A stretch of DNA of 56,874 nucleotides from a virus. The translations under genes were made by a program, and so were the position numbers. Under the pieces are notes generated by a model, which ran no database searches, was not told the origin of the DNA, and saw only the letters and a program-made list of their open reading frames with translations. Below are positions 456-50,020 of this stretch, one piece after another. The stretch spans positions 1-56,874 of IMG/VR virus record IMGVR_UViG_3300049491_000539; one strand, given 5' to 3'. Every line of letters starts with the position of its first letter. The stretch's first letter is position 1.

Positions 456-2903
456 TCAATCAATAATTTCCCATAATCGCTCGTTCACAATGAAGTCCTT
501 CGCAGGTCGTCCTTCTTTATGATTTTCGCGATTAGGCCTTATCCACTTCAATTGAACGAGATGTGCAATTGCTTCTTCAAGAATGACGACATCGGTCTTT
601 GCTGAGATTCCTCTTATCCCCGCCTCACGCCGCATTTGTCGAAGGTTGAACTTATCAATGTCGTTCGACGCGATCCACGTTGCGATGATTTTTGCCATAT
701 GAACATCGGCACTCAGAATGCTGTGGCCGTAGACACGACGTTGCATCGGTTTAATATACTCTTCGCGAAAGCGGATAGCGCACTTAACGGCCTCAATTGA
801 GATCACGTCTGGCGCGTCATCTTCAAACTCATCTTGAGACCACCAGAGCATTTCGAGTATCAGCGCTATTCTAGCGACGTGGCCGTGCGCTTTACCGTAT
901 GCGCCTGAAAGTGTGGCTGGCACGTAGCGCTCGTCGAAGGTGCGTTGATTCACCCAGGCTCCAAAGGCAGCAAGCGCCTCGCGGCTGAACGGAACGCGAA
1001 TGGGTTCTTTGATCTCCCCATCAGCTGTGTGCATGGTCAACTCGGAAAGCCGCTGGATAGCCTCGCGCATTCGATTGGCGAAGGGTGCGTTGGCTTCGAA
1101 GGGACGGATGGTGTTCTCAGGCCAGAAAGGTATGAAGCGAGCCTGTAGACCGTCGTCTGAACTGTTGAGCATGTCAGTTAGACGCTCAGGCTGGATGCCG
1201 CCTAGGATGCCGACTGAGAAGTGAGGGATGCGAACGGGAACGCCGTTGTCCTTGACTCGGTCAATCACGTAGGGTCCGCCGCCGTAGGCTTCCAGCCACG
1301 CTGGCCGGTCAGAGCCGCTGTTATAGCGTGCGAGATTGGAATACCAGCCGCTCATTTCGTCACGAAAGTTCAGGAACCCTCTTGGATTACCCGCCAAAGC
1401 CCGCTGTAGGGCTTCCAGCGTGGCGTCAGTGAGGTAGGCGCGACGTTTCTGTGGTTCGGCTGGTGGAAGACAGTCAGCTGGCATTGGCGGCGGGTTCTCG
1501 CCCTTTTCAACAGTAGCGGCGGATATGGCTTCCCACTGTTTGCGTTTTATGTCGGCGATCTTCTTCTCGCCGGTCCACTGACGATGCCGCTCGATGTGTG
1601 ACGGGAGCCACATTTGCTCAAGATCAGACATGATTTTGACGAGAGGTCGAAAGGCTGGTGATTTGCTGGCGCTCGGCGGTCCAATGACCTGACACCAGAG
1701 GATCGGCGGCTCTGACCAACCTTCACGAACTTGAACCCACCTGGCGTTACCGATCACCGAACCTGCAATAGCCAACAGTGCGGCAGCGGCGTAGTCAACG
1801 GGTGCGGCTCCGGTCTTTGCTAAAGCCACCACTTCCTTTGCCCAAAAAGGGCCGAGAATATCCAGCGGGAAGTCTGCTGAGTCTTGTAGAACCTGATTGA
1901 GAATCGTCAGATCAGGGTCATCAATCCGCGTGTGTGACTTCTCGTCGTTTTGTTCTGATTCTGGTTCTTCCAGATCATCAAACTCGTCTTGGATGGTTAA
2001 CAGCTCGGCGCGGTAGTGAGCGTCCCGCGCTGCCTGAATGATCGTCGCCATGCGAATCGGGTTCTTGCGACCAAGTTTAAAGTGACGCCAGCTTTGGCGC
2101 TGAACGTCGCCGTCATACTTCTCTGATTTCTTCGAGAACTTGTTCCAGAGCTTGAATGCAGCCGAAGAACCTTCAAACTCGTGATGCAGCGCCATACCGA
2201 GATGAAGCCAACCGTCGCGGTCGTCGCACCAATGGTCTAACGGCAGATCACGAAGTGTTTCTTCCGCCTCCTCTAAGGTGATGCCAAGGATTTCAGAATC
2301 AAGCTCGTCTTCTTCACTTTCACCGACCAAATCTTCGATGATTCGGCTGGAAATAAGCGGCAAACCATCAAATTCTAGGTCAAACGCGCGCTCCCAACGG
2401 TATTTTTTGCCCGTTTCAGGATGGATTGAGGGTGGTATAGCGACTTGTTTTCCGGTGCCGAAAAGTTCAATTTCCCAGAACCTATGCTTCTTTCCATCTT
2501 TCCCGACGAACCGATCATCGCTGTAGGCGAGCTTTTTTGAAGGGAATTCACGATCCGTGACGAAATAAATGTGCCGAGATTCGCCACCTGAACCAGAAAT
2601 AACGATTGGAAACTTTGATATTTTGACCTTTTTGAACAGGTCTTTGAGACAATCCCAGGCTTCTTCCGCAAAATCAGCGTCACGAACGTCGAGATCAATA
2701 CAGTGAAGATACTTCCCGTCGATTTTTGACCACTTGCCGAGGCGAACTCCAACATTCATCCCGTCGCGATATTGTTGCTTGAGCGCGTCCAAACTGGCAA
2801 CAGGTTTCTTTGACCAGTCGTCGCCTATTGGTGCTTTTGATCGAGGTTTTAGCCAGTGGATGGCAAAACCGTCGTCAACGAGTGATTGGATTTCCTTGAT
2901 CAC
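456..2903 (-). CDS. Primase-polymerase / DUF3987 replication protein
   Basis: An 815-residue protein with the layout of phage and plasmid replication proteins that combine priming and NTPase parts. The N-terminal ~190 residues look like a bifunctional primase/polymerase (prim-pol) domain: CIDLDVRDAD near residue 67 and SGSGG followed by a HIYF strand near 103. Residues ~220-290 (LGMALHHEF, then SWRHFKLG) resemble the PriCT-2 primase C-terminal domain. From ~350 on it resembles DUF3987, with a degenerate P-loop GPPSASKS near 410. The start is GTG at 2903, preceded by GGGAG. The stop is followed at once by a strong terminator. Neighbours are an HTH gene 17 bases upstream and the repeat cluster downstream. 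It probably initiates or primes phage replication. Family calls are good; the exact helicase activity is uncertain because the P-loop is atypical. Confidence 0.82.
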   Translation of the reverse strand: MIKEIQSLVDDGFAIHWLKPRSKAPIGDDWSKKPVASLDALKQQYRDGMNVGVRLGKWSKIDGKYLHCIDLDVRDADFAEEAWDCLKDLFKKVKISKFPIVISGSGGESRHIYFVTDREFPSKKLAYSDDRFVGKDGKKHRFWEIELFGTGKQVAIPPSIHPETGKKYRWERAFDLEFDGLPLISSRIIEDLVGESEEDELDSEILGITLEEAEETLRDLPLDHWCDDRDGWLHLGMALHHEFEGSSAAFKLWNKFSKKSEKYDGDVQRQSWRHFKLGRKNPIRMATIIQAARDAHYRAELLTIQDEFDDLEEPESEQNDEKSHTRIDDPDLTILNQVLQDSADFPLDILGPFWAKEVVALAKTGAAPVDYAAAALLAIAGSVIGNARWVQVREGWSEPPILWCQVIGPPSASKSPAFRPLVKIMSDLEQMWLPSHIERHRQWTGEKKIADIKRKQWEAISAATVEKGENPPPMPADCLPPAEPQKRRAYLTDATLEALQRALAGNPRGFLNFRDEMSGWYSNLARYNSGSDRPAWLEAYGGGPYVIDRVKDNGVPVRIPHFSVGILGGIQPERLTDMLNSSDDGLQARFIPFWPENTIRPFEANAPFANRMREAIQRLSELTMHTADGEIKEPIRVPFSREALAAFGAWVNQRTFDERYVPATLSGAYGKAHGHVARIALILEMLWWSQDEFEDDAPDVISIEAVKCAIRFREEYIKPMQRRVYGHSILSADVHMAKIIATWIASNDIDKFNLRQMRREAGIRGISAKTDVVILEEAIAHLVQLKWIRPNRENHKEGRPAKDFIVNERLWEIID

Positions 2904-2920
2904 GGCATTCTCCCGTTGGG

Positions 2921-3172
2921 TCAGGAGATGACGGTGAATTCAAGCAGCTTCTTCTTTTTGATCTGACATCCGGCAATTTCCAGAATGGGCTTCACCTGCC
3001 TCGCTGGCAACTCGTTGGCGTCGAGCCATTTATAGACGGCTTGCCAAGTCACTTTGAGTTCGACTGCCAGCTTTCTGACGTTCAATTTACCTCTATCATT
3101 CGTGAAGTCGGGAAGCCCCGCTGCAAGCTCGTCGGATAGGCATGAAGCCTCAGTGTTAGTGCTGTTATTCAT
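2921..3172 (-). CDS. Small HTH protein (Cro/YdaS-like)
   Basis: An 83-residue protein. Residues ~32-68 contain a helix-turn-helix pattern (VRKLAVELKVTWQAVYKWLD) and the last residues are lysine-rich (IKKKKLL). I chose ATG 3172 because GAGG lies 5 bases upstream; a longer TTG start at 3214 has no ribosome site and would run towards the operator at 3225-3239. It is co-directional with the primase gene and diverges from the plus-strand operon. The position, facing a 15-bp palindrome between divergent transcripts, suggests a Cro-like or early regulator. The function is inferred from the fold pattern and location only. Confidence 0.7.
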   Translation of the reverse strand: MNNSTNTEASCLSDELAAGLPDFTNDRGKLNVRKLAVELKVTWQAVYKWLDANELPARQVKPILEIAGCQIKKKKLLEFTVIS

Positions 3173-3224
3173 TACGGCCTCACGTTCTGATTTGGCCGGA
3201 CCATAGACGTGCAAAAATTAATAA

Positions 3225-3239
3225 TCAACTATTTGTTGA
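3225..3239. promoter_or_regulatory. Operator palindrome TCAAC-TATTT-GTTGA in a divergent control region
   Basis: A perfect 5+5 base palindrome lies between the minus-strand HTH gene (start 3172) and the plus-strand gene starting at 3311. Its right half runs into a -35-like TTGACA at 3236-3241. The same 15-bp form recurs at 10229, 49046, 50887 and 56607. Repressor binding is inferred. Confidence 0.65.
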
Positions 3240-3310
3240 CACTTCAACCAGAAAGTGGTTTTCAATGTGAAGCCGGTCACGGCCCATGCAAACACAATTT
3301 GGAGAACACC

Positions 3311-3742
3311 ATGTCATCACTTGAACAGCGACTTGCCGAGAATACGGAAGCCTTGAAAGAGAACAACGAACTCATCCGCGCAATGTTGTCAGCCGCTGCC
3401 GCCACGACCGCGAAGCGTGCAACCAAAAAAACGGCGTCTGACGACGGCAAAGCACCCGCAGCTGCTGAAAAAGCTGCGGCAAAAGCACCAACCACCCGGA
3501 AGAAGACGAAGTTCTCTGAGACCGACGTGAAGGAAATCGCGGCGAAGTATCTCGATGTTGAAGACGAGACCGAGCACGCAGAGCGCAAGGAAAAGGCGAA
3601 GAAAGTTCCGGCGAAATACGGCGTGAAGAAGCTTGCAGAAATCCCCGAAGCTGACCGCGCCGAGGCGATCCAGATTTTCGAAATGTTGATCGCTGGCGAG
3701 GACTACGACTTCGACGGCGCTGAGGAAGACGACGAGATTTGA
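3311..3742 (+). CDS. Lys/Ala-rich phage protein (histone-tail-like linker)
   Basis: A 143-residue protein with an N-terminal helix likely to form a coiled coil (SSLEQRLAENTEALKENNEL), then a lysine/alanine-rich low-complexity stretch (~residues 33-72) resembling histone H1-like tails. The C-terminal part is acidic (AEIPEADRAEAIQIFEML, ending EEDDEI). ATG 3311 is preceded by GGAG with good spacing; a longer reading frame from 3209 crosses the control region and is unlikely. It is the first gene of the rightward replication block and is followed by its own terminator. Comparable small proteins are seen before DUF2800/DUF2815 genes in other phages. The function is unknown; DNA binding through the basic linker is a guess. 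Confidence 0.72.
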   Translation: MSSLEQRLAENTEALKENNELIRAMLSAAAATTAKRATKKTASDDGKAPAAAEKAAAKAPTTRKKTKFSETDVKEIAAKYLDVEDETEHAERKEKAKKVPAKYGVKKLAEIPEADRAEAIQIFEMLIAGEDYDFDGAEEDDEI

Positions 3743-3760
3743 TTCTCGTCTCGTAAGAAG

Positions 3761-3784
3761 CCCTAGCCGAAAGGCTGGGGTTTT
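3761..3784 (+). terminator. Rho-independent terminator
   Basis: An 8-bp stem (3761-3768 with 3773-3780), a GAAA tetraloop and TTTT. It lies 18 bases after the stop of the Lys/Ala-rich gene and 51 bases before the DUF2800 start, so it may attenuate rather than end transcription. Confidence 0.8.
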
Positions 3785-3835
3785 CTGTTGAACGGTCCCG
3801 TGACCGCTTTACCGAAAACCCGCAGGTAAATTCAG

Positions 3836-5038
3836 TTGGCTGAACACGCAAGACTTTCACCTTCATCGGCCTCACGCTGGATGCGTTGCCCCGGCTCTGT
3901 GACGTTCATTGAGGCTGAGGAAATTGGCGATGAGTCTGGTGTTCCAGCGATGGAGGGAACCATTCTCCACTCGTTCTGCGAAACCTGCTTGCGGGATGAG
4001 GTTTCGCCCTTCGACCTGATAGGCGAGGTTCGCAAATACTCTGATTGTAACGATCACTTCAAGGATGGCGATCAGGACCACAGCTACGAACTCACTGAGG
4101 ACGATGCTGACCAAATTCAAGATGCGCTTGACCGGATTGATTCTATTGCGGGCAAATTGGTCATTGAACACAGGGTCAATTTGAAGCGCTGGATGCCGGG
4201 TCAATTCGGCACACTCGACATCGGAATAGTTGGCAAAAAGTGGATCACGATCTGGGATTGGAAGTGGGGATGGAACCCCGTCTCACCGGTTTTCAACGAA
4301 CAACTGATGACTTATGCGCTGGGGTTCTGGGATAATATTGCCCGTCATGAAAGCGATGCCACAAATTTCAGGCTGATTATTGAACAACCACGCATAAGCA
4401 GCGGCGGCGGTGTCTGGGAAACTACGCTCGACGAGCTTTCTGAGTTTGGCGCGAGGTTGAAGAAGCAAGCTGCAAAAGTGCTGGACGGGGCTGCCGAGCG
4501 CGTTCCTGGCGCTAAGCAGTGTGAGTATTGCCCCGGTGCAAAGAACATGTCTTGTCCGGAATACAACAAGTTTAACTACGATTTGGTGTGTCAGGACTTC
4601 GACGAGCTTGACGATCTCGCCTCGGCTGGTCTTCCGGCGCGAATGCCGCGATTCCTGACATCAGAGCGTCGCAGCTTCATTCTTGAAAACAGAGCGATGT
4701 TTGAAAAGTGGCTTGAGCGGATGCACGCTGAGGCTTTGGACGACGCGCTTAAAGGAAGACCCGTTCCGGGACTGAAAGCTGTCAGCGGACGAAATCCACC
4801 GCGCAAGTGGAAAGACGACGAAGCTGCCAAAGCCATGCTTACTGAGACGCTCGCGGAAGACGCTTGGAACAAAAAAATCATCTCACCGGCTCAGGCCGAG
4901 AAGATTCTCAGACCGTCAATTTGGGTGAAGGCGGATGAGATGGTCGACAAAGGAAAACCCAAACCAATCCTCGTTTCGGAGTTTGACAGTCGCGAACCAT
5001 TGCGAACCGTCATTGATGAATTCGACGATCTGGACTGA
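3836..5038 (+). CDS. DUF2800 family nuclease (PD-(D/E)XK / Cas4-RecB-like)
   Basis: A 400-residue protein opening with the typical DUF2800 start (LSPSSASRWMRCPGSV). In the middle, GTLDIG followed by WITIWDWKWGW supplies the D...DxK signature of RecB/Cas4-type nucleases. A later cysteine cluster (CEYCPGAKNMSCPEY, near residue 223) recalls the Fe-S cysteines of Cas4/AddB-type exonucleases. The start is TTG at 3836, set by the family N-terminus. It is followed 23 bases later by the DUF2815 gene, a pair often found together in phages. It probably acts as an exonuclease in recombination or replication. Catalysis is inferred from motifs. Confidence 0.82.
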   Translation: MAEHARLSPSSASRWMRCPGSVTFIEAEEIGDESGVPAMEGTILHSFCETCLRDEVSPFDLIGEVRKYSDCNDHFKDGDQDHSYELTEDDADQIQDALDRIDSIAGKLVIEHRVNLKRWMPGQFGTLDIGIVGKKWITIWDWKWGWNPVSPVFNEQLMTYALGFWDNIARHESDATNFRLIIEQPRISSGGGVWETTLDELSEFGARLKKQAAKVLDGAAERVPGAKQCEYCPGAKNMSCPEYNKFNYDLVCQDFDELDDLASAGLPARMPRFLTSERRSFILENRAMFEKWLERMHAEALDDALKGRPVPGLKAVSGRNPPRKWKDDEAAKAMLTETLAEDAWNKKIISPAQAEKILRPSIWVKADEMVDKGKPKPILVSEFDSREPLRTVIDEFDDLD

Positions 5039-5061
5039 TCAACTTAACGAAGGAGGGCCAA

Positions 5062-5853
5062 ATGGCCGACAAAGATAACGACCGGACAGTCGGAAAAATT
5101 CAGTTGAAGGATGTCAGACTGTCATTCCCCGCGCTCTTCCGTCCAAAGGCTTTTGCTGACGGCGGCGAACCTTCTTATCAGGCGAGCTTCTTGATCGACC
5201 CTGAAACGAAGGCTGGCAAGTTGATGTGTGACCTCATTGAGGACACCATTGATGATGTTAAAGACGCCAAATGGGCGAAGAACCCGCCCAAGATCAAGAG
5301 CGACAAGCAGCCGTTCCATGATGGTGAAGATTACCAGTATGACGGTTACGAAGGTATGATGGTTCTGTCGGCGCGGAACCAGAAAAAGCCGCGAATTCTT
5401 GACCGTGACAAAACTGATCTCGACGAGTCAGACGGTCGACCATATGCTGGATGCTACGTCGACGCGATTGTTCGGATTTGGGCGCAGGACAACCAGTATG
5501 GCAAGCGCATCAACTGCTCATTGGAGGCGATTCGCTACCGCCGCGACGGTGAGGCGTTCGGCGCTGCTCCGGTAGACATCGAGGAATTTGACGACCTCGA
5601 AGAAGAGAAGTCGGACCGTAAACGGCGCAGCGGTGACGACGAAGATGATGTGCCAGCAGACCGTAAGCGTCGGTCGCGTGACGATGATGAGCCGACTGAA
5701 CGGAAGCGCCGATCCCGCGATGACGACGAACCTTCTGAGCGCAAGCGTTCGACGAGTGATGATGAACCAACCGAACGGAAACGGCGCAGCCGTGACGACG
5801 AAGATGACCGCCCCGTTGAACGCAAGCGCCGGTCGCGAGACGACGATCTGTGA
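5062..5853 (+). CDS. DUF2815 protein (ssDNA-binding-like) with charged repeat tail
   Basis: A 263-residue protein. Residues ~1-185 match the DUF2815 pattern (KIQLKDVRLSFPALFRPKAF; YQASFLIDPETKAG), a family that sits with phage recombination and polymerase genes and is thought to bind single-stranded DNA. From ~188 to the end it is a low-complexity tail of about six alternating blocks such as RKRRSRDDDEPTE, strongly mixed-charge. AGGAGGG precedes ATG 5062. The stop overlaps the GTG of the polymerase gene (GTGA). The tail is unusual for the family; it may contact DNA or partner proteins, or be expendable repeat growth. Confidence 0.8.
   Translation: MADKDNDRTVGKIQLKDVRLSFPALFRPKAFADGGEPSYQASFLIDPETKAGKLMCDLIEDTIDDVKDAKWAKNPPKIKSDKQPFHDGEDYQYDGYEGMMVLSARNQKKPRILDRDKTDLDESDGRPYAGCYVDAIVRIWAQDNQYGKRINCSLEAIRYRRDGEAFGAAPVDIEEFDDLEEEKSDRKRRSGDDEDDVPADRKRRSRDDDEPTERKRRSRDDDEPSERKRSTSDDEPTERKRRSRDDEDDRPVERKRRSRDDDL
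5611..5850 (+). repeat. Imperfect tandem repeats coding RKRRSRDDDEP-type blocks
   Basis: About six degenerate units of roughly 36-48 bases encode alternating Arg/Lys and Asp/Glu blocks at the 3' end of the DUF2815 gene. Long open frames on the opposite strand here are by-products of the biased composition. Confidence 0.75.
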
Positions 5854-6947
5854 GCACATACTTCATTGACAGTGAGGTCTACAAAAACTTCTTTCTCGTC
5901 GGCGGCAAAACCGCTGACGGGAAAGTGTTTTCGTTGGAGATGTCGTCCGGCGAAAGCTTAGATACGAATCGCCTGAAACGCTTCATGTTGATGAACAAGA
6001 CGGTTGGCTTTAACAGCCGTTCATTTGATCTTCCTGTCATCTATGGGGCGATTGCGGGACTTCCCACAACTGATCTCAAGGCGATTGCTGACAAGATCAT
6101 TCTTGGTGGCGCGAAGTCCTGGGATATTGAGAAAGAATACGGTTTCGAGATACCAAGAAAACTCGATCATATTGACCTCATTGAGATACCGATTGGTCAG
6201 GCCAGCTTGAAGATTTACGGCGGCCGAATTCATGCACCACGAATGCAGGATTTGCCAATTGAGCCAGAAGCTTTGCTCACTACGAAGCAGATGGACGAGA
6301 TTTACGACTACTGGATCAATGATCTGGACACGACACATCTTCTCTTTGAAAAGTTGAAGCCAGAGATAGAACTTCGCGAAAAAATGAGCGAAGAATATGG
6401 TCAGGACTTGAGGTCAAAGAGCGATGCCCAGATCGCCGAGGCAGTCATCAAGGTTCAGGTTTCCAGCTTACTCGACATGAAGGTTAAAAAGCCGGAAATC
6501 CGATCTGGAACCACCTATAACTATACCATTCCGTCATTTATCAAGTTCAAGTCGGGCGACCTCAACGACATGCTGGAAGAAATTCGGCAGTCTAAATTCA
6601 TCGTCTCCAAGACCGGTAATATTCTAATGCCGAAGGCACTTGAGGACGCAAAAATATCGATTGGTGAGGGCGTCTACAGACTAGGCATCGGCGGGCTGCA
6701 TAGCTCGGAACAGACGACATCCCATGTTGCTGACGACGAAACAATTCTGATAGATCGGGATGTGGCGAGTTATTATCCCGCGATCATCATTAATCAAGGT
6801 CTTCATCCCGCGCACATGGGATGGGCATTTCTGCGGGTCTACAAAAAGATCGTCGCACGCCGTCTGAAAGCGAAGGCGCGTGTTGCTGAGCTAAAAAAAC
6901 AGATCGAAGACCTCAAAGTAAGTTTGAAGGAATTAGATTTTGGCTGA
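5850..6947 (+). CDS. Family B DNA polymerase, N-terminal fragment (exonuclease + motif A)
   Basis: A 365-residue front half of a phage DNA polymerase. The 3'-5' exonuclease motifs are visible: FIDSE (D7, E9), VGFNSRSFD near residue 52, and YDYWINDLD near 152. The polymerase palm motif A, DRDVASYYP, is at ~302-310. The protein then runs into a helical, charged tail (KARVAELKKQIEDLK) and stops at 6947, before motifs B and C. Those motifs are supplied by the separate gene at 7596. The start is GTG 5850 overlapping the DUF2815 stop. The following gene, an endonuclease, overlaps this stop by 8 bases. The two halves presumably assemble into an active polymerase; the split falls in the fingers region between motifs A and B. 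Confidence 0.85.
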   Translation: MSTYFIDSEVYKNFFLVGGKTADGKVFSLEMSSGESLDTNRLKRFMLMNKTVGFNSRSFDLPVIYGAIAGLPTTDLKAIADKIILGGAKSWDIEKEYGFEIPRKLDHIDLIEIPIGQASLKIYGGRIHAPRMQDLPIEPEALLTTKQMDEIYDYWINDLDTTHLLFEKLKPEIELREKMSEEYGQDLRSKSDAQIAEAVIKVQVSSLLDMKVKKPEIRSGTTYNYTIPSFIKFKSGDLNDMLEEIRQSKFIVSKTGNILMPKALEDAKISIGEGVYRLGIGGLHSSEQTTSHVADDETILIDRDVASYYPAIIINQGLHPAHMGWAFLRVYKKIVARRLKAKARVAELKKQIEDLKVSLKELDFG

Positions 6948-7599
6948 AACGTATCATAAACGCGGGGAGTTAATAGACGGTTATAGAGTGAGAGAACATC
7001 CTTGTTACAATGCGTGGTCTGGAATGAAACAAAGATGCATTAATGATAAGAACCCGTCATTTGAAAATTACGGGAACAGAGGAATTTCATATTGTTCAAG
7101 ATGGGCGCATTTTAGAAATTTTGTTTTTGATATGGGGATACCTTCTTTTACCAACGCTTCAATTGATAGAATAGACAACAATAAAGGTTATTCTGCTGAA
7201 AATTGTAGATGGGCGACAAGAAATATTCAGGCATCTAATAGAAGGTTATTTAAGTCAAACAAATCTGGTTTTACGGGTGTTTCAAAAACTAGGTCCGATT
7301 CATTTCTCGCACGACACCAATGTGAATTGGGTAGATTCAATCTAGGGCGGTTTGAAAGTGCTGCGGAAGCTGCACAGGCAGTGACAAAGTTTTCCAAGTT
7401 GTTATTCGTTGACCCTGCCTCCGCTATGATGATGTGTGAGAGACGCGCCAGACTAGATTCAGCAACAGGAATCAGAGGTATCAGTTCGCACGCATCGGGG
7501 TTCATTGTTAGAAAAACACTCAACGGCGAGCGTATTTATTTAGGACACTCGACCACCCTAGCAGAAGCGGTGAAGATTTTATTGGTGGGTCAATCATGA
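6940..7599 (+). CDS. Homing-endonuclease-like protein with AP2-type DNA-binding repeats
   Basis: A 219-residue protein inserted between the two polymerase halves. The N-terminal ~100 residues match a phage family I know by its pattern HPCYNAWSGMKQRC, SFENYGNRGISYCSRW, and DRIDNNKGYSAENCRWAT (~75-92), usually annotated HNH/AP2 endonuclease. The C-terminal half has two AP2-like units (SGFTGVSKTRSDSFLAR...; TGIRGISSHASGFIVRK...). The TTG start is preceded by AAGGA. It overlaps the polymerase stop upstream and the second-half start downstream (ATGA). Its DNA is clearly more AT-rich than its neighbours, a sign of separate origin. With no room for intron RNA, it looks like a free-standing mobile gene that split its host gene. 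Cleavage activity is inferred. Confidence 0.8.
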   Translation: MAETYHKRGELIDGYRVREHPCYNAWSGMKQRCINDKNPSFENYGNRGISYCSRWAHFRNFVFDMGIPSFTNASIDRIDNNKGYSAENCRWATRNIQASNRRLFKSNKSGFTGVSKTRSDSFLARHQCELGRFNLGRFESAAEAAQAVTKFSKLLFVDPASAMMMCERRARLDSATGIRGISSHASGFIVRKTLNGERIYLGHSTTLAEAVKILLVGQS

Positions 7600-8417
7600 C
7601 AACAAGAGAAGAAATCTTGTTGAAAATATCAAATCTTGAGAAAGAACTTTCTGCCGAAAAATCACAAGCAGACGGTGGAAAAATTCAAATTAATGGAAGC
7701 TTTGGAAAATTTGGAAATCGATGGTCCACACTTTATTCGCCGCAGCTTTTGATTCAGGTGACTATCACCGGTCAGCTTGCGTTGCTGATGCTCATTGAGC
7801 GACTTCATGAGGCACGAATTCCGGTTGTCAGCGCCAACACAGACGGCGTGGTGATAAAATGTCCTAAGTCACTTCAACTGCGAATGGGAGACGTGGTGGC
7901 TGGTTGGGAAATTGACACTGGTTTTGAAACTGAGGCGACTCAATATTCTGCGCTCTACAGCCGAGATGTGAACAACTACGTTGCCGTTAAGCATGATGGC
8001 ACGGCTAAGACCAAGGGCGCATATGCGGACCCAGGACTTTCAAAAAATCCGACAAATCAAATCTGCGTGGACGCGGTGATCGCAAAGATCACGAAGGGTG
8101 AGTCGATCTCCAAAACTATCCGAGAATGCACAGACATCAGGAAGTTCGTGACGATCCGCGCCGTCCGTGGTGGCGCGATCTGGGATGGTTTTTATCTTGG
8201 AAAAGCCGTCAGGTGGTATTATTCGAAAACATCAAACTCAGCCATTCATTACAAAATGCCGAACAAAACTGGAAACCACAACAAGGTTGCCAGAACGGAC
8301 GGTTGTCGACCGTTGATGAACTTGCCTGACGCGTTGCCGAGCGACGTGGACTTTGCTTGGTATATTAGGGAAGCGAGGTCAATTCTTGAAGATATTGGCT
8401 ATAATGGTGGTCTCTGA
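7596..8417 (+). CDS. Family B DNA polymerase, C-terminal fragment (motifs B and C)
   Basis: A 273-residue back half of the polymerase. After a ~27-residue charged helical leader (EEILLKISNLEKELSAEK) comes motif B, KIQINGSFGKFG (~29-40), then motif C, SANTDGVVIK (~79-88), and the thumb region. The exonuclease and motif A are absent here but present in the gene at 5850. ATG 7596 overlaps the endonuclease stop. The stop overlaps the ATG of the next gene (TGATG), so translation of the whole set is probably coupled. The leader and the tail of the first fragment both look helical and could pair, which would hold the two halves together. Confidence 0.85.
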   Translation: MTTREEILLKISNLEKELSAEKSQADGGKIQINGSFGKFGNRWSTLYSPQLLIQVTITGQLALLMLIERLHEARIPVVSANTDGVVIKCPKSLQLRMGDVVAGWEIDTGFETEATQYSALYSRDVNNYVAVKHDGTAKTKGAYADPGLSKNPTNQICVDAVIAKITKGESISKTIRECTDIRKFVTIRAVRGGAIWDGFYLGKAVRWYYSKTSNSAIHYKMPNKTGNHNKVARTDGCRPLMNLPDALPSDVDFAWYIREARSILEDIGYNGGL

Positions 8418-8683
8418 TGCGCGAGTCTTACATAGTTTCAAAAGTCGTCGCGTTCGCTGAAAAACAAGGTTTCCTTCATAGAAAAGTCCTCTATGCCGGC
8501 CGAAAGGGCGCACCCGATGATTGGTTTTTTGGCGCTGGCGCTCGCCTTGAAATCATAGAGTTTAAGGCACCTGGAGAGCAGCCTGACGCTGTGCAAGAAC
8601 GTGAAATAGCTCGCCTTCGGAAGCTTGGTTTCAACATTCACGTCGTTGATGATGTGGATAAAGGCATAAAGATATTCTTATGA
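8417..8683 (+). CDS. VRR-NUC domain nuclease
   Basis: An 88-residue stand-alone VRR-NUC protein, the usual size for the phage form. The conserved GRKGAPDDWFFG is followed by LEIIEFKAPGEQP (E-x-K) and a C-terminal RKLGFNIHVVDD, the PD-(D/E)XK nuclease core. It overlaps the polymerase stop by one base and the helicase start by four (ATGA). In phages this family lies between polymerase and SNF2-type helicase genes, as here, suggesting joint work on branched or flapped replication intermediates. The role is inferred from family and context. Confidence 0.88.
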   Translation: MRESYIVSKVVAFAEKQGFLHRKVLYAGRKGAPDDWFFGAGARLEIIEFKAPGEQPDAVQEREIARLRKLGFNIHVVDDVDKGIKIFL

Positions 8684-49537: not shown

Positions 49538-49770
49538 GTTGGATAACCTTCTGCCTTCATCTCTTCAATTATTCGACTGCCACGATGGGTGAGCGTCAAA
49601 GTCCATTTGTTGTGAACGATTTCCTCTTGAACCAAACACAAGGACACTAGACCGGCAACCATCCTGAGCGACACGAACGCGTTGCCCAAACGGCTGTTGT
49701 AACCAAGTTCAAACTTAAACAACTTCGTGTTGGCGATCTGGACAAGTGTTCGTCTTTCCGCTCCCGTCAT
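49534..49770 (-). CDS. Winged-helix-like small protein
   Basis: A 78-residue protein: TGAERRTLVQIANTKLFKFELGY ... VSLRMVAGLVSLCLVQEEI ... LTLTHRGSRIIEEM is the pattern of a short winged helix (T/S-x2-E-R-x-T-L start, LTxxG end). Start choice is uncertain: ATG 49770 fits the domain; ATG 49824 overlaps the MazG-like gene by 110 bases. Either way the two genes overlap in different frames. It may regulate neighbouring genes. Confidence 0.5.
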   Translation of the reverse strand: MTGAERRTLVQIANTKLFKFELGYNSRLGNAFVSLRMVAGLVSLCLVQEEIVHNKWTLTLTHRGSRIIEEMKAEGYPT

Positions 49771-50020
49771 CCCAGCTGCTGTGACACGCTTGACGAGACT
49801 CAATTTCCTTGTTCCGGCAAGCATGTGCTGCTGCCATAAAATCCATGATTTCAGATCGAAGCAAAAATCTGTTTTCAGTTGTGCTGGCGGGATGATGATT
49901 ATGAAGCCCGTGACGAAGTATCTTGCCGCATATTTGCACAACCTCTCCCGCCTCTTCCATGAGCATGGCAATACGCTCAGCAGAGGCCGGTGATAGTTTA
50001 TTAAAATGCTTCTCGGTCAT
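49715..50020 (-). CDS. MazG-like nucleotide pyrophosphohydrolase, short or truncated
   Basis: A 101-residue protein. Residues ~8-65 fit phage MazG-like sequences: LSPASAERIAMLMEEAGEVVQICGKILRHG (EExxE-type start of the metal site), then FLLRSEIMDFMAAA for the second acidic motif. Beyond ~70 the sequence (KEIESRQACHSSWDDGSGKTNTCP) no longer looks like the family, suggesting a frameshift or altered C-terminus. ATG 50020 overlaps the preceding stop. It may cleave (d)NTPs or ppGpp if the remaining part is enough. Confidence 0.68.
   Translation of the reverse strand: MTEKHFNKLSPASAERIAMLMEEAGEVVQICGKILRHGLHNHHPASTTENRFLLRSEIMDFMAAAHACRNKEIESRQACHSSWDDGSGKTNTCPDRQHEVV

Follow-up and report, generated by a model that had tools for sequence, protein, structure and literature searches.

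A family B DNA polymerase gene split at the turn of its fingers hairpin by a free-standing HNH endonuclease-like gene: a likely two-subunit enzyme

Genes split in two, with a free-standing homing endonuclease gene between the parts, have been described in several phages; PMC2988022 lists Aeh1 nrdA/mobE, T4 60/mobA, and phage 25 gene 43/seg43. The last of these is the closest counterpart of the locus treated here, the family B DNA polymerase gene of IMG/VR virus record IMGVR_UViG_3300049491_000539 (the whole record, 56,874 bases, was analysed and is called the window). In Aeromonas phage 25, as in the window, a family B replicative polymerase is split between motifs A and B, and a free-standing nuclease gene, there of the seg type (GIY-YIG), lies between the parts. 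In the phage 25 record, 43A runs past motif A to end in ...RKSEKKMMLAAIRNQEAIKKILASRGIKTDH, the nuclease gene follows, and 43B then begins ahead of motif B (...NRKILINSLYG). The gene 43 halves of phages 25 and 44RR (43A/43B) are reported to co-purify and to show polymerase activity (PMC2988022). These phages differ from the window in having a T4-type polymerase, with a group I intron in 43B of phage 25 and an untranslated spacer in 44RR, and the causal role of the nuclease is uncertain in both (PMC2988022). In the window, unlike in phage 25, no intron was found and the nuclease is of the HNH type; in addition, relatives of the window locus include unsplit alleles with exchange footprints.

An earlier, sequence-only reading of the window had likened the locus to the split ribonucleotide reductase of Aeh1, set apart by its occurrence in a replicative polymerase. 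The likeness holds, but the window is not the first such polymerase, because phage 25 has the same layout. In Aeh1 nrdA (mobE) a free-standing HNH gene also splits an essential replication gene, and the split NrdA chains assemble into an active enzyme (PMC2988022; PMC3267527). That enzyme is a ribonucleotide reductase, whereas the joining parts of the window's polymerase look like the fingers hairpin arms of unsplit relatives. Assembly of the Aeh1 enzyme is ascribed, in the title of Crona et al. 2011 (cited in PMC3267527), to interaction domains derived from the mobile element. In T4 the free-standing HNH gene mobA likewise splits an essential gene, that of topoisomerase 39/60, whose products work as separate subunits (PMC2988022), although the enzyme is a different one. 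PolB of Pseudomonas phage MIJ3 also consists of two open reading frames (ORFs) with an HNH gene between them, but its parts bear split-intein blocks (PMC6892783), none of which is seen in the window by inspection. In OM43 phages MEP401 and MEP402 the polymerase gene is likewise divided in two, and the small ORFs inserted there have no known homology (PMC10580990). The design, including the region of the enzyme that is broken, is already known from the unrelated family B polymerase of phage 25; what is new, against the open-licence literature, is its presence in a second polymerase family and in several lineages, with two nuclease classes at one site, footprinted unsplit sisters, and arms that match a hairpin.

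The features of the window locus are as follows.

5850-6947, plus strand: N half of the family B polymerase, carrying the 3'-5' exonuclease and motif A of the palm, 365 residues, GTG start
6876-6944, plus strand: arm 1, the charged helix with which the N half ends (ARVAELKKQIEDLKVSLKELDFG), first hairpin arm by alignment and models
6888-7745, plus strand: AT-rich block by base composition, comprising the end of arm 1, the nuclease gene, arm 2 and motif B
6940-7599, plus strand: free-standing HNH/AP2-type homing endonuclease-like gene, 219 residues, TTG start
7596-8417, plus strand: C half of the polymerase, with motifs B and C and the remainder up to the C terminus, 273 residues, ATG start
7596-7667, plus strand: arm 2, the charged helix with which the C half begins (MTTREEILLKISNLEKELSAEKSQ), second hairpin arm by alignment and models
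7680-7715, plus strand: motif B (KIQINGSFGKFG), with K29, N33 and F36-G37-K38 invariant or nearly so among relatives

As first read, the exonuclease motifs and motif A are located in the first ORF and motifs B and C in the third, and the endonuclease-like gene lies exactly between them. The coordinates bear out the overlaps (8 bases between the N half and the nuclease ORF, 4 between the nuclease ORF and the C half), and the middle ORF matches PHROGs HNH-endonuclease families 374, 3377, and 8790, all at E<1e-33 (best E 4e-41). The N half matches PHROG 1252, 'DNA polymerase', over profile positions 53-398 (E 2e-96) and the C half over 391-654 of 663 (E 6e-94); because these ranges adjoin, the halves are contiguous and complete, with nothing lost between them. 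Residues 1-363 of the N half are alignable to relatives. PHROG 1252 is a family B DNA polymerase. Neither half matches Pfam above the cut-off; a profile built from the C half together with related sequences picks out solved family B structures, 1s5j first (E 2e-10) and Pol alpha and archaeal enzymes after it, and a search with the AlphaFold2 model of the unsplit relative L013 (predicted local distance difference test score 93.7) returns family B structures first, at E 3e-16 and probability 1.0, with global template modelling scores of just 0.3-0.5.

The break lies in the fingers between motifs A and B, as had been proposed, and alignment and models place it at the turn of a hairpin. Most relatives are short-fingered (e.g. 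AAKAAGNKVIADSLKI), and a minority, including L102, L254, L013, and L042, have a long fingers insertion. This insertion is modelled as two helices with a short turn between them, residues 327-362 and 367-402 in L102 and 327-363 and 374-407 in L013. Both window arms align without internal gaps to the hairpin arms of intact L102 and L254, and the hairpin helices of L013 are also alignable. Alignment of intact relatives had been suggested as a way to find the empty site, and unsplit alleles were indeed found: with unsplit L102 as the reference, alignment of the window's N half stops at residue 363 and that of the C half begins at residue 367. Because the alignment breaks there, the nuclease gene sits exactly at the hairpin turn. 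The earlier reading took the ends of the two fragments for new charged helices able to pair. They are helices, but not random new sequence; as judged from alignment and predicted structure, they are the two arms of the long fingers hairpin present in unsplit relatives. The unsplit long hairpin of L102 (2903-4831) has a Met where the split C halves start (TEFAMNRSEIENKIKELKKEL), and this polymerase could be a split gene that was re-fused after loss of the nuclease.

The same-site split is present in 22 other IMG/VR contigs, in all of which the N half ends, and the C half begins, with a charged helix-like stretch. A GIY-YIG gene occupies the site in 20 contigs (L301-L317, L227, L247, and L251), several of them near-identical, and the nuclease of L107 is also of the GIY-YIG type (PF01541, E 5e-9). 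L215 has an HNH/AP2 gene at this site, and the window nuclease is 43% identical to it. In L212 the nuclease has decayed to 66 residues of its AP2 end and the polymerase is still split, so a split can last longer than its nuclease. Assembly errors could occur in these contigs, all of which are metagenomic, but since so many show the same split, such errors are unlikely as its general cause. All of the 34 relatives of the C half are unsplit. A search of viral contigs with the N-half protein returned a single distant locus, and a scan of genome contigs for the motif KIQ[IV]N gave two loci.

On a tree of 161 polymerases, built with the junction left out, split and unsplit states require seven changes, gains and losses together. 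The splits are nested among unsplit polymerases. Most of their tree neighbours are unsplit and have short fingers, L047 next to the window among them, even though long hairpins are common in the window's clade. Unsplit alleles stand beside splits in several places (L200-L203, L243, L257/L260/L244, and L213/L214/L216). Three candidate splits were rejected: Pseudomonas phage PSV3, whose matches fall in several pieces in different frames and look more like sequencing errors, and L048 and L282, in which stops occur at the match end only. The 22 do not include L320-L323 and L325-L327, where the interruption lies at motif A or upstream of it. (L320 is interrupted upstream of motif A by the same GIY-YIG type, with nearly no non-coding sequence. 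In L204 [1885-4396], which is near L200 and unsplit at the fingers, a different GIY-YIG gene [3325-3993] breaks the polymerase after motif C [NNYIAVYK / NNVKIKGKG]; this could be another split or a gene that is simply broken. In the very distant member L198 [2331-6146], the N and C parts lie about 2.2 kb apart with several small ORFs between them.)

Comparison of occupied and empty alleles reveals footprints of exchange around the site. Split L107 and unsplit L200-L203 share 93-94% nucleotide identity on both flanks; near the junction, identity between L107 and L200 is 75-77% over the last 120 nucleotides (nt) upstream and 82-83% over the first 60 nt downstream, and farther out it is 92-100% in nearly all bins. 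The L226/L243 pair has a wider trough, with 52-65% identity in about 420 nt on the upstream side, 63-72% in 240 nt on the downstream side, and 80-90% beyond, and L237 and L212 show a drop against their unsplit neighbours mainly upstream. Drops in single bins are weak by themselves, because the unsplit pair L257/L244 also dips beside the site; the wide low-identity tracts fit repair-driven co-conversion. Occupied and empty alleles with such tracts are seen in the same-site relatives, and the window itself shows the AT-rich block only. Within this block (6888-7745) the guanine-plus-cytosine content (GC) is 35-41% and that of third codon positions 26-40%, as against 48-49% and 54-57% in the rest of both halves; the nuclease gene has a GC of 41%, and the mean for the other genes is 52%. 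The limits of the block match those of the exchange footprints in relatives, and from its composition the block is read as an imported or co-converted tract.

These observations are most likely explained by insertion of a homing endonuclease gene that gave rise to a two-subunit family B polymerase held by its fingers hairpin. The nuclease gene would enter the polymerase gene from another phage via double-strand-break repair and, by its position in the hairpin turn, would break it into two cistrons. All three genes would then be translated from one message, presumably co-transcribed, through their overlapping starts and stops. The two chains would remain unspliced and fold together non-covalently, arm 1 and arm 2 re-forming the hairpin that is one chain in relatives. 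The product would be a working two-subunit polymerase, and the nuclease would be expected to cleave empty alleles.

Several points weigh against this explanation. The window nuclease has neither a solved-structure match nor a Pfam match, and the GTG and TTG starts are predicted, as is the ribosome site, of modest strength, ahead of the C half. The window has no close relative, and the ratios of nonsynonymous to synonymous substitution (dN/dS) come from split relatives rather than from the window's halves. The direction of exchange is ambiguous for L107/L200, because split L205 branches outside both, and loss in L200 fits too; for L226, L237, and L212 gain of the split is the simpler reading. 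Finally, the arms may be native to the window's own clade, since some unsplit polymerases carry long hairpins.

Four other accounts have to be considered. That the insert belongs to a self-splicing intron, or is otherwise removed from the RNA so that one polymerase chain is made, is very unlikely, although group I introns are known in phage polymerase genes (according to references given in PMC10580990) and the same GIY-YIG family is found in likely group I introns at motif A of distant polymerases. There (L321-L323 and L325-L327) a related GIY-YIG gene is preceded by 205-251 nt of non-coding sequence, and the 3' polymerase part of L321 and L325-L327 has no convincing start; in a permissive Rfam search L326 matches Intron_gpI at E 2e-7, below the curated cut-off. 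These motif A interruptions, to judge from such features, probably lie in a group I intron, and it seems that this gene houses one GIY-YIG family both with and without an intron around it. Detection of the L326 intron serves as a positive control for the negative results at the fingers site, where Rfam gave nothing at E<=1 over window positions 5800-8500 and no intron at the gathering score in seven split relatives. In addition, the N half and the nuclease gene at this site are separated by at most 36 nt, the C half either adjoins the nuclease gene or overlaps it, each fingers-split C half carries its own ATG start codon, and the polymerase frame between the first stop and the third start of the window contains 24 stops. 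The arms, moreover, are conserved protein helices. (A sub-threshold Rfam match to isrG, 42 bits against a cut-off of 100, also lies in L326 at 982-1256.) Joining of the two chains of a fractured gene by a split intein, which is known in principle and is reported for MIJ3 PolB (PMC6892783), is extremely improbable. The extra ends, of about 23 and 24 residues, are together too short for an intein; the start of arm 1 has no splicing Cys/Ser and the end of arm 2 no His-Asn; and intein blocks at the broken ends were absent by inspection, an intein profile not having been run on these ends. Because the same arms are found inside unsplit L102, L254, and L013, they belong to the mature enzyme. The earlier statements that neither an intron nor an intein is in evidence have thus held.

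It is highly improbable that the insertion simply inactivated the polymerase and that the phage relies on another, even though there is no close relative by which selection on the window's halves could be gauged. Both frames are intact, and at the 72 columns with >=97% conservation among unsplit relatives neither the window nor any split relative tested shows a departure. Pairs of split relatives have dN/dS values of 0.05-0.15 in the N half and 0.06-0.08 in the C half, so that both halves are under strong purifying selection, and in L226/L245 both arms are identical as protein although the DNA differs. The split also persists in groups of related contigs and, in L212, after decay of the nuclease. 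A full-length polymerase elsewhere had been named as a finding that would count against a split enzyme; PHROGs scans of other large ORFs in the window gave primase/helicase and no polymerase, intact relatives match the two halves and nowhere else in the whole window, and in nine records searched whole (seven of them fingers-split) the matches are pieces of one polymerase only. The last account, in which some lineages had long been fixed for the split before nuclease genes moved into the gap, is unlikely but has more in its favour: two unrelated nuclease types occupy the same gap between similar arms, the split of L212 has outlasted its nuclease, and the order of events is also unclear in T4-type phages (PMC2988022). 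Against it, splits adjoin unsplit and mostly short-fingered neighbours, with seven state changes on the tree; it differs from the insertion account in history only and leads to the same two-subunit enzyme.

With insertion as the favoured explanation, the question is what the nuclease gene brought with it. The hairpin arms apparently arrived together with it in four lineages, and in the window the joint arrival of arms and nuclease is favoured because the arms are AT-rich. There is about an even chance that the transferred unit is a 'split-and-clasp' cassette, in which arm 1 and its stop codon precede the nuclease gene and a start codon, arm 2, and motif B follow it, with two unrelated nuclease types sharing the cassette site. 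If so, homing of the cassette into a short-fingered, one-piece polymerase would break the gene and at the same time bring the hairpin that clasps the parts, so that function is kept.

Splitting of a replicative polymerase by homing endonucleases is no oddity of T4: another family B polymerase, unrelated to that of T4, has it as well, again between motifs A and B and with two nuclease classes. Unsplit alleles that are about 80-94% identical to split ones, e.g. L107 and L200, provide natural before-and-after pairs, which bear on the transition from one chain to two subunits and on whether the mobile element supplies the parts that hold them together. Annotation pipelines would label such split polymerases as two truncated genes.

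The polymerase genes of the window are neighboured by genes for a DUF2800/PD-(D/E)XK exonuclease, an Enc34-type single-stranded DNA-binding protein, a weak VRR-NUC-like match, and an SNF2-type helicase; terminase, portal, capsid, tail, and integrase genes lie elsewhere in the window. Positions 49757-50014 show a weak match to the C-terminal part of the HNH/AP2 protein (28% identity, E 0.06). In L204 the SNF2-type helicase ORF next to the polymerase (4778-7105) contains a stretch that appears intein-like on reading (CISEGTEVLTDSGW ... VHNC). The Enc34-type single-stranded DNA-binding protein of the window (5062-5853) has a long charged C-terminal tail of DDEPTERKRRSRD repeats.

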